Below, piece by piece: positions 3,255-24,812 of a stretch of DNA of 34,087 bases. Position 1 is the stretch's first letter. Every line of letters begins with the position of its first letter. Both the position numbers and the translations under genes were made by a program. Where the stretch lies: contig JAURMD010000161.1 of assembly GCA_030830875.1 (NCBI GenBank), positions 1 to 34,087 of the forward strand. The letters are read 5' to 3'. Source of the DNA: Thermoplasmatota archaeon (lineage in GTDB: Archaea; Thermoplasmatota; Poseidoniia; Poseidoniales; Poseidoniaceae). Below the pieces are notes generated by a model. The model ran no database searches. It saw nothing but the letters and a program-made list of their open reading frames with translations, and was not told where the DNA came from.

Positions 3255-4898
3255 TCAAGCGTCAGCGTCGCGCTCTCCCATCGCGTCAAGTTGTGCTTGG
3301 ATGTCGTCAGGAATCTGTGCTTCAAGGCGTGCCCACAGCACGTCATCGATTCGAAGCACGGCGCATGCTGCTTCGGTGGCACCATGAATCGTCGGACGCA
3401 CCACGCTCAGGGGTTCGAGAACACCGATGGCGCCAAGGTCCTTCGGCGTGCCATCGGTCAAATCAAGCCCGATTCGGTGTGCGTCCGACCCACCATCGGC
3501 CTGCGCAGCGGTCACGTCGAGCAGCGCGTCGATTGGATCGAGTCCGGCATTTTCTGCTAAGGCGCGAGGAATGGATTCAAGCGCGTCGGCGTAGGCTTCC
3601 ATGGCCAATTGCTCGCGGCCGGGGGTTGCTTCAGCTCGTCGTCTCAAATGACGTGCAATGGCCACGTGGGCCGCACCTCCACCCACGAGCAAGCGTCGGT
3701 CGATGCGAACTTGTGCAGCGACGCCAACTGCGTCATCAAAGCACCTCGATGTCTCCTCGACCACATGATCGCTGCTGCCACGAGCAATGAAGGTCGCTGC
3801 GACGCCCTCGCCTCGAACGGTCCAGTGGTGCATGTCCCCGATGAGGTGAGAACGGCTCTCGATGACGTTCCCAACGTCGGATGTGCCGGCTTGGTCGGCC
3901 CGGAGGACCACACGTGCTCCCGTCGCGAGGGCGAGCAGGTCGAGGTCACTTGCGGGCACGCGCCGGAAGGCTTGGATCCCCGCGTCCATCAAGGACCGAT
4001 GGGCCTCGTCGTCGATGGCCCCGGAGACGGCAAGGACGTTCACGCCGAGGTCCGTCACGTGCTTCACGTCGAGCTTCATCCGTTCACCTTCTCGGCGCCG
4101 CAACGCGTTCAGAACCTCTGGCGAGGTGGCTTGGAAACTGACGTCGCTGCGCATACCACGTCGCTCAAGACCGCCGTCGACGAGCAGGATTCGACCGTTC
4201 TCTACCACTTTCACCATGGAGGGGTTGGCAAGCCGCTTCGCAAGAACGAGGCCGTTGACGACCTCTGAGTCGGTGGCCGGGCGGCCAACCGCCATCACCG
4301 TGGAAATGCGTGTTGGGTCGACGTCGATTCGCCCGTCCACTTCGCGCTCGATGGCTTTGGCCGCTTCAGCGGCCAAGACGGCCAGTCGTGCCTGCACTGC
4401 AGTGCTTGATTTTCCGGCAAGGCTCGAGCGAACGGCGGTGACGAGGTCGTCATCCGTGCCCTCCATGGCGAGTCGCTCGAGCATCGCGAGGGCTTCCGCT
4501 TCCGCACGACGGTAGCCGCGCACGATGGTGCTGGGATGCACACCTTCCACCACGAGGTGCCATGCATTTCGCAACAATTCCGCTGCGATGATCACCGCCG
4601 AGGTGGTCCCGTCCCGCGCGGTTCGATCCTGGGCGGAGGATGCATCGATCAGCATGCGAGCAACCGGATGTTCAACGCGTGCCGTTTCAAGCACGGTCAC
4701 ACCATCGTTGGTGACCAGGGTACGACCTTCCTCGTCGAGCAGTAGCTTGTCGAGGCCCTTTGGACCGAGCGTGCTCCGCACCGCACCTGACAACGCCATG
4801 GCGGCTGCGATGTTCTTGCGGAGTGCGGTCCGCCCGGTGGTTCGGGCGGTGTCCTCCAGCAAGGGGGCCTCGCTCATGGCGCCGCCACCGGTGGGCAC
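3255..4898 (-). CDS. Thermosome / group II chaperonin (TCP-1/Cpn60) subunit, divergent
   Basis: RSTLGPKGLDKLL, VTNDGVTVL, RDGTTSAVI, VGGGAAHVAIARHLR, ALAENAGLDPIDALLDV, VLRIDDVL. A start at MSEAPLL (4877) is also possible. Confidence 0.9.
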   Translation of the reverse strand: MPTGGGAMSEAPLLEDTARTTGRTALRKNIAAAMALSGAVRSTLGPKGLDKLLLDEEGRTLVTNDGVTVLETARVEHPVARMLIDASSAQDRTARDGTTSAVIIAAELLRNAWHLVVEGVHPSTIVRGYRRAEAEALAMLERLAMEGTDDDLVTAVRSSLAGKSSTAVQARLAVLAAEAAKAIEREVDGRIDVDPTRISTVMAVGRPATDSEVVNGLVLAKRLANPSMVKVVENGRILLVDGGLERRGMRSDVSFQATSPEVLNALRRREGERMKLDVKHVTDLGVNVLAVSGAIDDEAHRSLMDAGIQAFRRVPASDLDLLALATGARVVLRADQAGTSDVGNVIESRSHLIGDMHHWTVRGEGVAATFIARGSSDHVVEETSRCFDDAVGVAAQVRIDRRLLVGGGAAHVAIARHLRRRAEATPGREQLAMEAYADALESIPRALAENAGLDPIDALLDVTAAQADGGSDAHRIGLDLTDGTPKDLGAIGVLEPLSVVRPTIHGATEAACAVLRIDDVLWARLEAQIPDDIQAQLDAMGERDADA

Positions 4899-20694: not shown

Positions 20695-21708
20695 ATGGCC
20701 GGTTCCCCCGTCTCGACGCACGACCCCGCAGCAGGAGAAGGCGCTGCCCCCGCATCACCTTCACCGGACCAACAGCGGCAAATGGAGCAAGCCTACGCCC
20801 AGATGAAGCGAAAAATGGCGATGCAAGCCCTCGGAAAGCGCATCAAACACAAGATCATGGTCCTCTCAGGAAAGGGCGGGGTTGGCAAGTCCACCGTGTC
20901 CACGGGCCTCGCGCTGTCCTTGGCTCAGCAAGGGCACAACGTTGGCATTTTGGACATCGACATCACCGGTCCTAACGTGCCCAAAATGATGGGGCTGAGC
21001 GGCAAGCGCCTCCATGTCGAAGAAGGGCGAATACATCCTGCGGTCGGTCACAATGGTGTCAAGGTCATTTCCATGGCCTTCTTGCTGGACGACGATGACA
21101 CGCCCGTCGTGTGGCGAGGTCCCATCAAGCTCGGCGCCATCCAGCAATTCATTGGGGATGTCGAATGGGGTGACCTCGATTACCTCGTCATCGATTTTCC
21201 CCCCGGCACGTCCGATGAACCGTTGACGGTCGCCCAATCCCTTCCAGACATCGATGGGATGGTTATCGTGACCACGCCCCAGGACGTGGCCTTGCTTGAC
21301 AGCCGCAAGTCGATTGGCTTCGCTGAGTCCCTCAAGGTCCCGGTGCTCGGTGTCGTTGAGAACATGAGCGGCTACACGCTGAGCGGCCGTGCACCCGCCG
21401 GAACCGAACTTCAGATTGCAGGGCCCGGTGGTCGGATGCACAACATCACCGCCGATGCCTCCGGTACGTTCTCCGTCACCCTCGACCTGTTCAAGCAAGG
21501 CGGAGGAAAATCCACAGCAGAGGAATTTAACGTGCCTTTCTTGGGCGCCCTCCCCTTCGACCCGGGCTTCGTCCGTGGGGGAGACGATGGCGTTCACCGT
21601 ATCGTCAGTGACCCTGAAGGCCCGTCGGCTCAGGCCTTTGCTCAGGTCGTAGCGGCCATTCAAGATCGAATTGCCATTGGCGGAAGCAGCAGCCTCGAGA
21701 TTGTCTGA
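20695..21708 (+). CDS. Mrp/NBP35-family P-loop ATPase, cysteine-less variant
   Basis: LSGKGGVGKSTVSTGLA, DIDITGPNVPKMMG, DYLVIDFPPGTSDEPLTVAQ, GVVENMSGY; no Cys in all 337 residues. Confidence 0.93.
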   Translation: MAGSPVSTHDPAAGEGAAPASPSPDQQRQMEQAYAQMKRKMAMQALGKRIKHKIMVLSGKGGVGKSTVSTGLALSLAQQGHNVGILDIDITGPNVPKMMGLSGKRLHVEEGRIHPAVGHNGVKVISMAFLLDDDDTPVVWRGPIKLGAIQQFIGDVEWGDLDYLVIDFPPGTSDEPLTVAQSLPDIDGMVIVTTPQDVALLDSRKSIGFAESLKVPVLGVVENMSGYTLSGRAPAGTELQIAGPGGRMHNITADASGTFSVTLDLFKQGGGKSTAEEFNVPFLGALPFDPGFVRGGDDGVHRIVSDPEGPSAQAFAQVVAAIQDRIAIGGSSSLEIV

Positions 21709-21718
21709 GGTGAGGGTC

Positions 21719-22075
21719 ATGAGCGGCGACATCCCTCGGCTGGTCCGTCTGGAACGTCGACCGAGCGACCTTCACCTCACATGGGAAGACGGAACAGAGC
21801 ACGAGGTGACCTACGATGACCTCAGGCATGCATGCCCGTGCGCCAAGTGTGCGCCCTCGCGCAACGACGATGGCACCAGCGCCATCCTTCGGAGGGAGGT
21901 CGAATCCTTGCCTTCGACGCTGCCCACCGTGCGAACCGTGGGCCACTATGCAGTGACCTTTGAGTGGGACGACAAGGGATGCAGCTCCGGTATTTACCGC
22001 TTTGAACGACTGTGGGCCCTCGGACGTCGTGAAGACCCCGACGGCGGACGACCCTACGTGCACGGAGCGTGGTGA
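21719..22075 (+). CDS. DUF971 / gamma-butyrobetaine hydroxylase-like N-terminal domain protein
   Basis: LTWEDGTEHEVTYDDLRHACPCAKC...VTFEWDDKGCSSGIYRFERLWALG. Confidence 0.8.
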   Translation: MSGDIPRLVRLERRPSDLHLTWEDGTEHEVTYDDLRHACPCAKCAPSRNDDGTSAILRREVESLPSTLPTVRTVGHYAVTFEWDDKGCSSGIYRFERLWALGRREDPDGGRPYVHGAW

Positions 22076-22076
22076 G

Positions 22077-22745
22077 GTGTTTGAGGCCGTGGAGGTGCTC
22101 CACCTCGGGGCAGAGGCCGAAGTGACCGCTGGCCGATGGCTTGGTCTTGATGCAATTCGTAAGCAACGCCGCTCCCGTTCCTGGCGCCATCCTGATCTTG
22201 ACGAGCGCCTTGGCCGTCAGCGGTTGCTTGGAGAAGCAAGGCTGCTGCTTCGGCTGCATCGTGCTGGATTGCGCGTCCCGGCCCTGTACGACGCTGACGT
22301 TGAGCGTGACGTGCTCATCATGGAACGATTGCACGGCCGGCCGCTGATCGACGTGCTTCGTGACCCCTCGACCCCCGACGTTCTTGCCGTGATGCGCGCT
22401 GTTGGGTCTGAAGTTCGTCGGCTTCACGCTCATGCTGTGACCCACGGTGACCTCTCCACGAACAACATCCTGGTGACCCCAGATGGGAACGTCGCCCTCA
22501 TCGACTTTGGATTGTCCACGATCGAGTACGATGTGGAACGCTTTGGTATTGACCTGCATGTGCTCGACGAAGTGCTTGGGGCCAGCCACCCCGATCGTCA
22601 GGGGGCGATGGAATCCCTGCTCGAGGGCTACCTCGCCTCTGACCTCGCAGCGGCACAGGAAGGCTCTGGCGGAACGGTTCCATCGGCGGTTGACGTCGTC
22701 GAGCGGTTGGACGTTGTTCGCACGCGAGTGCGCTATCACGGTTGA
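22077..22745 (+). CDS. bud32: KEOPS complex kinase/ATPase Bud32
   Basis: GTG start just after the DUF971 stop; HLGAEAEV, IRKQRRSRSWRHPDLDERLGRQRLLGEARLL, THGDLSTNNILV, VALIDFGLS. Confidence 0.9.
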   Translation: MFEAVEVLHLGAEAEVTAGRWLGLDAIRKQRRSRSWRHPDLDERLGRQRLLGEARLLLRLHRAGLRVPALYDADVERDVLIMERLHGRPLIDVLRDPSTPDVLAVMRAVGSEVRRLHAHAVTHGDLSTNNILVTPDGNVALIDFGLSTIEYDVERFGIDLHVLDEVLGASHPDRQGAMESLLEGYLASDLAAAQEGSGGTVPSAVDVVERLDVVRTRVRYHG

Positions 22746-22748
22746 TGC

Positions 22749-24812
22749 TCATTCCTCTTCGGTGGCCGTTGAACGAATCGCGCGTTGGCGTTGAACGACG
22801 TTTGCAACGGTCAGCAACAACGCCACGACCAATCCGGTCTGAAGTACGATGTTGGCGTAGGGTTGGAGTTCGACGTGGCGGCTGTGAATTTCGACGCTGG
22901 TCGAACCATCGATCGCTTCCTCGAGGTAAATGATGTGGTGGTCAAGCACCGTGGGGGACCATTGATGCCTGAGGTCCGCCGTCAAGACTTCCGTCCGGTT
23001 GGTGGTCAGGTTGTGGAGGTGGATTTCACCGTCGAGGTACTTGTTCTCAGGGCTGCGTGGATCGAGGTGGTCCCACGCCGTGAAAGCCATGAGGTGCACT
23101 CCGAGGTCTGGATCGGCCGCGGAATATTTGCCGTCACCGATGAGCACCGACGTCGCCGTCGCTCGCTCGTACAGCACGAGCCGATCGACGGTGCTCACGT
23201 TGACCACAGCGGCAAGATGGGTCGGGCTGAGGTCGAGATCAATCACGGTTCTGTTGACGAGATCGACAGGCAAGCCCCATTCCATCATTGCCTGTTCCTG
23301 TTCGACAGGAGCGGAGGCGTTGAGGACGATGCCCACCGACCCTGTTGTTTGAAGCCGTGCGATTCGAACCACGCCCGGAGCATTGGAGGTGGACCACGCC
23401 AGTTCTCCCCCTGACGTGGCCAAGACGGTGACGTTGGTCGCTTCCTCTGGAAGAGCGACGGGCTCCCCTGTGGGGGACCATGCTTCGAGCACACCCTCCA
23501 CCACCGTCAGGACGACCCTACCTTCCGCGACGGCCACGGCCGTAGGTCGAGCCACCAAGGGCAAGTCGAGGACGAGGGGTGCCTCGGACGTTGCTTCGAC
23601 GGCCATCAACCGCGTCGAGTTCGCCATCACGAGCAACCCATGGTCGAGTGCGAAAGGGTCGCCTTCTCTCATCAGAGGTTGGTCCACGAGGAACGGCTCG
23701 TCAGGAAGGGTCAGGTCGTACAGCAGCATCACGTGGGTGCCGCTCTGGTTGTCGAGGGACGCCAACCATCCGTCGGCTGCCGTCGCCCCTTCTGGAGCGA
23801 CCGTCCCACCGGCAGGAAGGGCCTGATGCGTCAGGTCAAAGGTCACGACGAGGAAGACCACGACCAGAACACCGATCAAGGCGAGGCCGGTCTCACGCGC
23901 TTCAGGTCGGCGGTACCGTCGAGCAAGGTCCACCAACGGTGCTGCGAGCGCAGCAAGCGCGATGCGAGGACGCGTGAGCAAGGATGCCAACCGGGCGTTC
24001 ATGGTGCGCTCATCGCCAATTCGCCACACGAAATTCACGCTCCGCTCCGTCAAGGCGACGGCCAACGAGGCAACGAGCAACCCACCGAGGATGTCGGAAA
24101 GCCAGTGGATGCCCAGGTACACGATGGTGAATGCGGTCAGCAGGATGTACCCAAGGACGGTGTGCCTGTACCGTCGCCAGCGTCCGTCCTCATCCCAACG
24201 TAGCAACGTGAGGAAGACCACAGCGGGGATGCCGATGTGGAGGCTGGGCATGCCGTTCGTGAACGGGTCAATCCTTCGGAACCAGTCTGAGATTTCCGGA
24301 TTGAGATCGTAGGCAAGGGTCTCCATGCCTGGAATCACGTCACCGGTCACACGGACGTTGAAAAAGAGGTAGAAGGGGACAGCGAGGACGTAGACCCACG
24401 CGATGGAGAGGACGATTCGATCGGCCATCCAGCGGTCGTCGAAGTACGCGACATAGAACACGGACACGTAGCAGATGAACATGAACCCGGCCACGTAGAA
24501 GTGGGTGAGCAACGAGGTGAGCCACGCGGATTCGAAGGTCTCCTGAACCCTCAACACGAGGTCGCCTTCGATGGCGTAAATCCACGGTGTCATGTCGAAT
24601 CCGGCGCTCGCCATGAGGATCCGATCGATTTGGTCGAGTGAATCCTTGGCGTTGTAAATGATGAGCAGCAGAAGGACATGCACCCAATACCGTCGAATAA
24701 AATCCACAAATCCCGAGAGGGTTAGTTTTGCCCAAGGTGGGGCATAGACTGGAAGCAGGAGCACCCCCAAGGCGAGGGCGCTCATCATCCAGGTGAGGTA
24801 GACACCTTCCAC
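22749..24812 (-). CDS. PAP2-superfamily integral membrane protein with large extracellular domain
   Basis: Multiple N-terminal TMs; NGMPSLHIGIPAV...GIHWLSDILGG PAP2 signature; then TM, ~330 aa beta-rich exodomain with sequons, and terminal TM IVLQTGLVVALLLTVANVV. Confidence 0.8.
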   Translation of the reverse strand: MEGVYLTWMMSALALGVLLLPVYAPPWAKLTLSGFVDFIRRYWVHVLLLLIIYNAKDSLDQIDRILMASAGFDMTPWIYAIEGDLVLRVQETFESAWLTSLLTHFYVAGFMFICYVSVFYVAYFDDRWMADRIVLSIAWVYVLAVPFYLFFNVRVTGDVIPGMETLAYDLNPEISDWFRRIDPFTNGMPSLHIGIPAVVFLTLLRWDEDGRWRRYRHTVLGYILLTAFTIVYLGIHWLSDILGGLLVASLAVALTERSVNFVWRIGDERTMNARLASLLTRPRIALAALAAPLVDLARRYRRPEARETGLALIGVLVVVFLVVTFDLTHQALPAGGTVAPEGATAADGWLASLDNQSGTHVMLLYDLTLPDEPFLVDQPLMREGDPFALDHGLLVMANSTRLMAVEATSEAPLVLDLPLVARPTAVAVAEGRVVLTVVEGVLEAWSPTGEPVALPEEATNVTVLATSGGELAWSTSNAPGVVRIARLQTTGSVGIVLNASAPVEQEQAMMEWGLPVDLVNRTVIDLDLSPTHLAAVVNVSTVDRLVLYERATATSVLIGDGKYSAADPDLGVHLMAFTAWDHLDPRSPENKYLDGEIHLHNLTTNRTEVLTADLRHQWSPTVLDHHIIYLEEAIDGSTSVEIHSRHVELQPYANIVLQTGLVVALLLTVANVVQRQRAIRSTATEEE

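Follow-up and report, generated by a model that had tools for sequence, protein, structure and literature searches.

A cysteine-free Mrp/NBP35-type ATPase in the Poseidoniales with a predicted Big_6-like beta element at the CxxC site and an adjacent four-cysteine DUF971 protein

Mrp-type P-loop ATPases carry a CxxC motif that is described as essential for Fe-S biogenesis and bridges a [4Fe-4S] cluster, and the role of nucleotide hydrolysis in these proteins has been called still unclear (PMC6345978). Here we report an Mrp/NBP35-homologous ATPase from a stretch of archaeal DNA of 34,087 nucleotides (the window) in which the CxxC loop is replaced by a longer, cysteine-free insert. The next gene encodes a DUF971 protein (Table 1), a partner domain that is fused into the Fe-S carrier HCF101, where its function has been called elusive (PMC7980591). 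The order under study has two families (f1 and f2 in the text below), lies within the Thermoplasmatota and groups with UBA59; it is probably Candidatus Poseidoniales (Marine Group II), whose families are Poseidoniaceae and Thalassarchaeaceae.

Table 1. Features of the ATPase gene and the DUF971 gene in the window.
Feature	Position	Strand	Remarks
Mrp/NBP35-homologous P-loop ATPase, 337 aa, no Cys	20695..21708	+	ATG start; PF10609 E 2.7e-89
Deviant Walker A GKGGVGKS (residues 59-66)	20869..20892	+	All 64 Mrp sequences agree at residues 58-65; residue 66 is nearly invariant
Switch II / Walker B region DFPPGTSDE (residues 167-175)	21193..21219	+	Compared in 25 insert-type sequences
Insert (residues 227-264) replacing the CxxC loop; four predicted beta strands	21373..21486	+	Big_6-like; AlphaFold2 model
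DUF971 / GBBH-like_N protein, 118 aa	21719..22075	+	PF06155 E 1.8e-17; 10 bp downstream of the Mrp stop codon
CPCAKC motif of the DUF971 protein (Cys 39, 41, 44)	21833..21850	+	CPCAxC kept in the order
Fourth Cys of the DUF971 protein (Cys 88, GCSSGIY)	21980..21982	+	In place of His in DGHxxGI

Results

In a profile search, the window ORF scored 299 bits against PF10609 (NUBPL/Mrp; curated cut-off 27.1), with two matching stretches (residues 50-229 and the C-terminal part) that flank the unmatched residues ~230-260. Its PDB relatives were Cfd1, AF2382 and ApbC (E 1e-52 to 1e-54), and by sequence it was nearer to Cfd1/ApbC than to HypB (1e-54 vs. 2e-30); the archaeal MinD profile matched at 6e-22. 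The AlphaFold2 model (pLDDT 92.1, pTM 0.88; alignment of 64 sequences) had a fold close to MinD and HypB ATPases in Foldseek, where ranks 6-17 were taken by the ATPase-type HypB of T. kodakarensis (target-normalised TM-score 0.87-0.91). The protein shares the P-loop fold, the deviant Walker A, switch II and the ENMSG and F-x-x-GGG anchors with the Mrp/ApbC/NBP35-Cfd1/NUBPL carriers (best PDB matches 8zkc, 2ph1 and 6g2g), from which it differs by a 39-residue, four-strand segment in place of CxxC. These matches support its descent from Mrp.

A sequence-only reading of the window had described a cysteine-free Mrp/NBP35 ATPase with intact Walker motifs, and both points held: the 337 residues include no Cys, and SGKGGVGKS and DFPPGTSDE are present and conserved, with D167, P169-G171, D174 and E175 invariant among 25 insert-type sequences. 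The canonical CxxC after ENMSG is absent from the window ATPase and from all insert-type relatives read. Among 75 insert-type sequences of the order and family f31, 61 have no Cys and 14 have one stray Cys. The cysteine-free state itself adds little, because many CxxC-type relatives have just those two Cys and loss of the loop leaves none. Many members of the order also share the N-terminus M-x-DSPV/I (20695-20775) and a C-terminal tail LEII/LEIV (21690-21705).

At the CxxC site, the window ATPase has 39 Cys-free residues, counting from the G of ENMSG (GYTLSGRAPAGTELQIAGPGGRMHNITADASGTFSVTLD), up to the LFKQGGG anchor. In relatives this stretch is about 12 residues long and contains CPHC, the motif that most Thermoplasmatota of other families, among those read, have here (for example GLICPHCHNTIDLFKKGGG). 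The net gain in the window ATPase is about 27 residues; the earlier statement that ~9 residues with CxxC had given way to ~36 without Cys was right in these terms, and its flank alignment and coordinates were correct. The AlphaFold2 model placed four strands in the insert (residues 227-232, 238-242, 248-252 and 258-263; pLDDT about 95 or more), and the same four were recovered when the insert was predicted alone (47-residue model; mean pLDDT 86.8).

The window insert alone matched the bacterial Ig domain Big_6 (PF17936) at E 2.3e-5 and 25.0 bits, with a curated cut-off of 27.6 that the equivalent insert of a relative (L014) exceeded at 29.6 bits. Two f2 inserts matched at 8e-6 and 7e-5, and those of f31 at 0.01-0.02. 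The likeness to Big_6 is a sequence pattern over about 40 residues of the insert; the difference is that the insert covers only about 40 of 83 profile positions (about 12-59 or 14-57), or about half of the domain. It does not form a complete beta-sandwich, as it has four strands and the remaining Big_6 strands are missing. The claim of an Ig-like insert thus stands for a partial Big_6 resemblance and not for a sandwich domain: profile and models support a probable folded beta element of Big_6-like sequence, amounting to half an Ig-like unit. A Foldseek search of the isolated insert against the PDB returned nothing significant; the Ig-like domains of bacterial adhesins that it listed (SiiE, TM-score about 0.67 by query) had E values of about 0.7 and above, a likeness between model and structures that is suggestive at most. 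The idea that the insert was copied from one of the genome's own surface proteins was rejected, since no other Big_6 match occurs in the assembly (1.8 Mb).

A homologue of the ATPase was found by protein search in 105/116 genomes of the same family, in most genomes of the order's two families (251 in number), and in 266 of the 294 genomes of the class, mostly with one match per genome. All 75 collected sequences (the two families and f31) carry the insert, in a sample that was gathered by a pattern filter, includes a few duplicates and, taken alone, leaves room for other types of loop. The order yielded no Mrp of the CxxC type and one Mrp per genome, and a second, CxxC-type copy that could act as a backup was not found. 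The search of related genomes that had been proposed thus found the insert throughout the order's sequences read, and no CxxC homologue at the site within the order. Within the genus, dN/dS (Nei-Gojobori) was 0.01-0.05 in the core and 0.04-0.29 in the insert, so that purifying selection acts on both and is weaker on the insert. With the same insert in many independent assemblies and under purifying selection, the probability of an assembly or frameshift artefact is negligible. One f2 genome (G266, genus g17) has an f1-like Mrp-DUF971 adjacency (L147), and its Mrp groups with an f1 sequence (L145), owing to either transfer or mis-binning.

In nearly all of the f1 loci that were retrieved, the DUF971 gene lies directly downstream of Mrp and is co-directional with it, and DUF971 was present in 14/14 genomes of the order tested. 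In f2 it usually lies elsewhere in the genome, not adjacent to Mrp; in f3, a family of the same class, it is fused to Mrp. No DUF971 gene was found in f31 (two genomes), and no DUF971 motif near the insert-type loci of Neomarinimicrobiota. Sequences were collected by a pattern that required CxCAxC and, further on, a motif of the GI[Y/F] type and left the fourth residue free; all 61 distinct sequences from the order have Cys there (CPCA[KN]C, then GC[SN][SA]GI[YF]). The same position is His (DGH) in f3 genus g23, two bacteria and the PDB entries 3luu, 2l6n and 2l6p, and Ala in f3 genus g24, which is without CxxC. As a lead only, this His may be the counterpart of a zinc ligand that is structural in gamma-butyrobetaine hydroxylase; the alignment to that enzyme stopped short of the position. 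In a Gemmataceae bacterium (L250), a stand-alone DUF971 gene (3431-3892) lies directly upstream of a short-loop Cys-less Mrp, possibly a second, independent DUF971-Mrp pairing.

The genome of the window encodes SufB, SufD and a DUF59 protein together on one contig (C139), and the SufB/SufD and DUF59 families occur across the order; by gene content, Fe-S assembly is present in the order. HypA was absent from 13/14 genomes of the order tested, the other having one match below the cut-off. Second Mrp-like paralogues, Cys-less at the loop, were noted at L300-L308 (families f16, f5 and f34). Those of f16 lie beside HypA, which is consistent with ATPase-type HypB, and are about 34-44% identical to the f31 query.

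The sequence-only reading had also called the arrangement unusual, which was overstated, since many bacteria have Mrps without CxxC and Neomarinimicrobiota have similar inserts. An open-access literature search found no paper describing such a loss in Mrp. Among 125 Mrp sequences compared, the loop is short and Cys-less in 18; of these, 14 are from bacteria, among them Rhizobiales, Bacteroidota, Chlorobiota, Chloroflexota, Gemmatimonadota and Planctomycetota. The bacterial cases (L209, L221, L230, L233, L235, L236, L238, L250, L256, L258, L261, L263, L266 and L268) often have PDTG-type loops. Proteins of this kind (e.g. Rhizobiales, YFVAPDTGKRYDIFG) resemble the window ATPase in the loss of CxxC at the same site, but their loops are 7-13 residues long and without an inserted module. 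In f3 genus g24, a DUF59-Mrp-DUF971 fusion (L075-L079) is without CxxC (GFTPPGSEEIFH), whereas its sister genus g23 has kept HCPEC; the loss in g24 is independent of that in the order. Loss of CxxC does not track loss of SUF; the order has SUF, and so do most genomes of f3.

Insert-like segments of 34-41 residues at the CxxC site were also found on Mrps of Neomarinimicrobiota (L215, L222) and of a further bacterium (L220). They share with the window ATPase a Cys-poor, beta-type segment at the same site and differ in their other Mrp backbone, which has an N-terminal DUF59-like region. On a tree built without the loop region, from a quick search and with weak support for many branches, four changes are required for the insert, and a single origin of all inserts in one clade was rejected (AU test, p = 0.0006). 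The order and f31 as one clade were not rejected (p = 0.66), the constrained tree being better by 13 log units. The bacterial inserts (Neomarinimicrobiota and L220) match Big_6 weakly or not at all, so that the modules may have a common origin or separate ones.

Discussion

The ATPase signature is kept and CxxC is missing, so the protein should not be classed among the Mrp Fe-S carriers, and annotation of the order's ATPases as Fe-S carriers by homology alone is unsafe. Two known systems can be compared with it. HCF101 combines DUF59, Mrp and DUF971, and its cluster requires C128, C347 and C419 (PMC5890173). The same three families are present in the genome of the window (DUF59 in the SUF neighbourhood), but as three separate genes, with DUF59 on another contig and DUF971 as the next gene; in addition, the DUF971 of the order has Cys for His at the fourth position, and its Mrp has the insert. 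The ATPase-type HypB belongs to the Mrp/MinD ATPases, has no identified nickel site of its own and acts on the zinc-binding HypA; with HypA its ATPase activity is three times higher, and a nickel site of high affinity forms in the complex (PMC7055735). By analogy, the insert-type ATPase would be a dimer, and it would resemble the HypB of Thermococcus in being an Mrp-like dimer ATPase without its own metal site and, in the proposed logic, in acting on a small metal-binding partner. It differs in that the order is without HypA and has no nickel link, and the HypB-like paralogues read are without the insert. HypB/HypA logic and HCF101 composition together make an ATP-driven switch acting on a DUF971 partner the most economical reading.

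Our best explanation, which is tentative and to which we give somewhat less than even chances, is a carrier split between an ATP-switch ATPase and a metal-holding DUF971 protein. The ATPase would have lost its bridging [4Fe-4S] site and gained in its place a small module of four strands for docking or clamping, and ATP binding and hydrolysis would still switch the dimer between conformations. The metal or cluster would be held by the adjacent DUF971 protein with its four conserved Cys (CxCxxC + C); the ATPase would open or close this site or hand the DUF971 partner to targets, SUF would supply the clusters, and the system would be a split, rearranged HCF101 working by the logic of ATPase-type HypB. 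The two genes may be co-transcribed and their products would bind each other, with the insert as a candidate contact surface and Fe-S or another metal held on the DUF971 protein. The loop loss and the extra conserved Cys suggest, short of proof, that the metal-holding job shifted to the neighbour protein. Possible but doubtful is the fuller scenario in which the order moved the cluster or metal duty from the ATPase to DUF971 through CxxC loss and a His-to-Cys change, with the half-Ig module as docking surface.

Several observations favour a split carrier: the one Mrp per genome and missing CxxC backup; the conserved Walker A and switch II together with the low dN/dS of the core; the recurrence of DUF971, which directly follows Mrp in nearly all f1 loci, is present in all genomes of the order tested, is fused to Mrp in f3 and lies upstream of it in L250; and the presence of SufB/SufD and DUF59. 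The fourth DUF971 Cys is found throughout the order as opposed to His in g23 and bacteria, and in g24, which lost CxxC separately, this position has also changed (to Ala). The cluster cysteines of HCF101 and the HypB precedent, with the Foldseek matches and the Cys-less loops of the paralogues, point the same way. What speaks most strongly against it is f31, where CxxC has likewise been replaced by a related insert, yet two genomes yielded no DUF971. The usual separation of the two genes in f2 and the lack of a DUF971 motif near the insert-type loci of Neomarinimicrobiota also count against a split carrier, and the four-Cys site of DUF971 may just bind zinc.

Unlikely, but deserving weight, is a structural substitution in which the insert clamps the two subunits in place of the cluster and the ATPase acts as a cluster-free assembly or chaperone factor that does not need DUF971. 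The insert sits exactly at the site of the bridging loop and folds confidently in the model, and Mrps of other backbones, with no known link to DUF971, bear similar inserts. However, this leaves the fourth DUF971 Cys of the same order unexplained, and the short Cys-less Mrps lost CxxC without a replacement module, so that a clamp is not generally required. We consider it somewhat less probable that the ATPase has left Fe-S metabolism to act as an organiser of the ParA/MinD kind or as chaperone of a different cofactor, although its canonical cluster site is gone, its fold is close to MinD and HypB, and the MinD profile matches. The far stronger Mrp/NUBPL matches count against a ParA/MinD-like protein, and the retention of SUF and DUF59 and the adjoining DUF971, the HCF101 domain, argue for an ATPase that stays in the Fe-S pathway. 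The sequence-only reading had suggested that Fe-S carriage may have been lost and a new role gained. The canonical bridging-cluster site is indeed unusable, but a role outside Fe-S metabolism is unsupported as stated, in genomes that keep SUF, DUF59 and the HCF101 partner domain next to the ATPase.

Cluster ligation by residues other than Cys exists in other proteins, and a bridging cluster still bound through such ligands in or near the insert would need no CxxC. We regard this as very improbable, as the insert has no conserved Cys, most of the insert-type proteins lack Cys entirely, and relatives do not conserve the His of the window's insert. Lower still is our credence in a nickel-insertion ATPase-type HypB acting with HypA. 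It draws on the Foldseek ranks and on the Cys-less loop of that family in the paralogues read; the window ATPase is nearer to Cfd1/ApbC in sequence, the likely HypB paralogues that adjoin HypA in f16 are only distantly identical to the f31 query, and the absence of HypA from 13/14 genomes tested in the order effectively refutes it.

In this marine lineage of archaea, an ATPase kept under strong purifying selection without its cluster site is a natural separation of two Mrp functions. The part most worth testing is the paired cysteine change in the neighbouring DUF971 protein: if this partner carries metal, there would be a testable role for the domain called elusive in HCF101 (PMC7980591).

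Other genes in the window

Further downstream, a 687-aa protein (22749-24812, minus strand) begins with a membrane domain resembling PAP2 phosphatases, and its long C-terminal part is without a Pfam match. The end of the DUF971 gene is overlapped by an ORF for a RIO/Kdo/ABC1-like kinase (21960-22745, plus strand), possibly of the Bud32 type, whose true start is uncertain.
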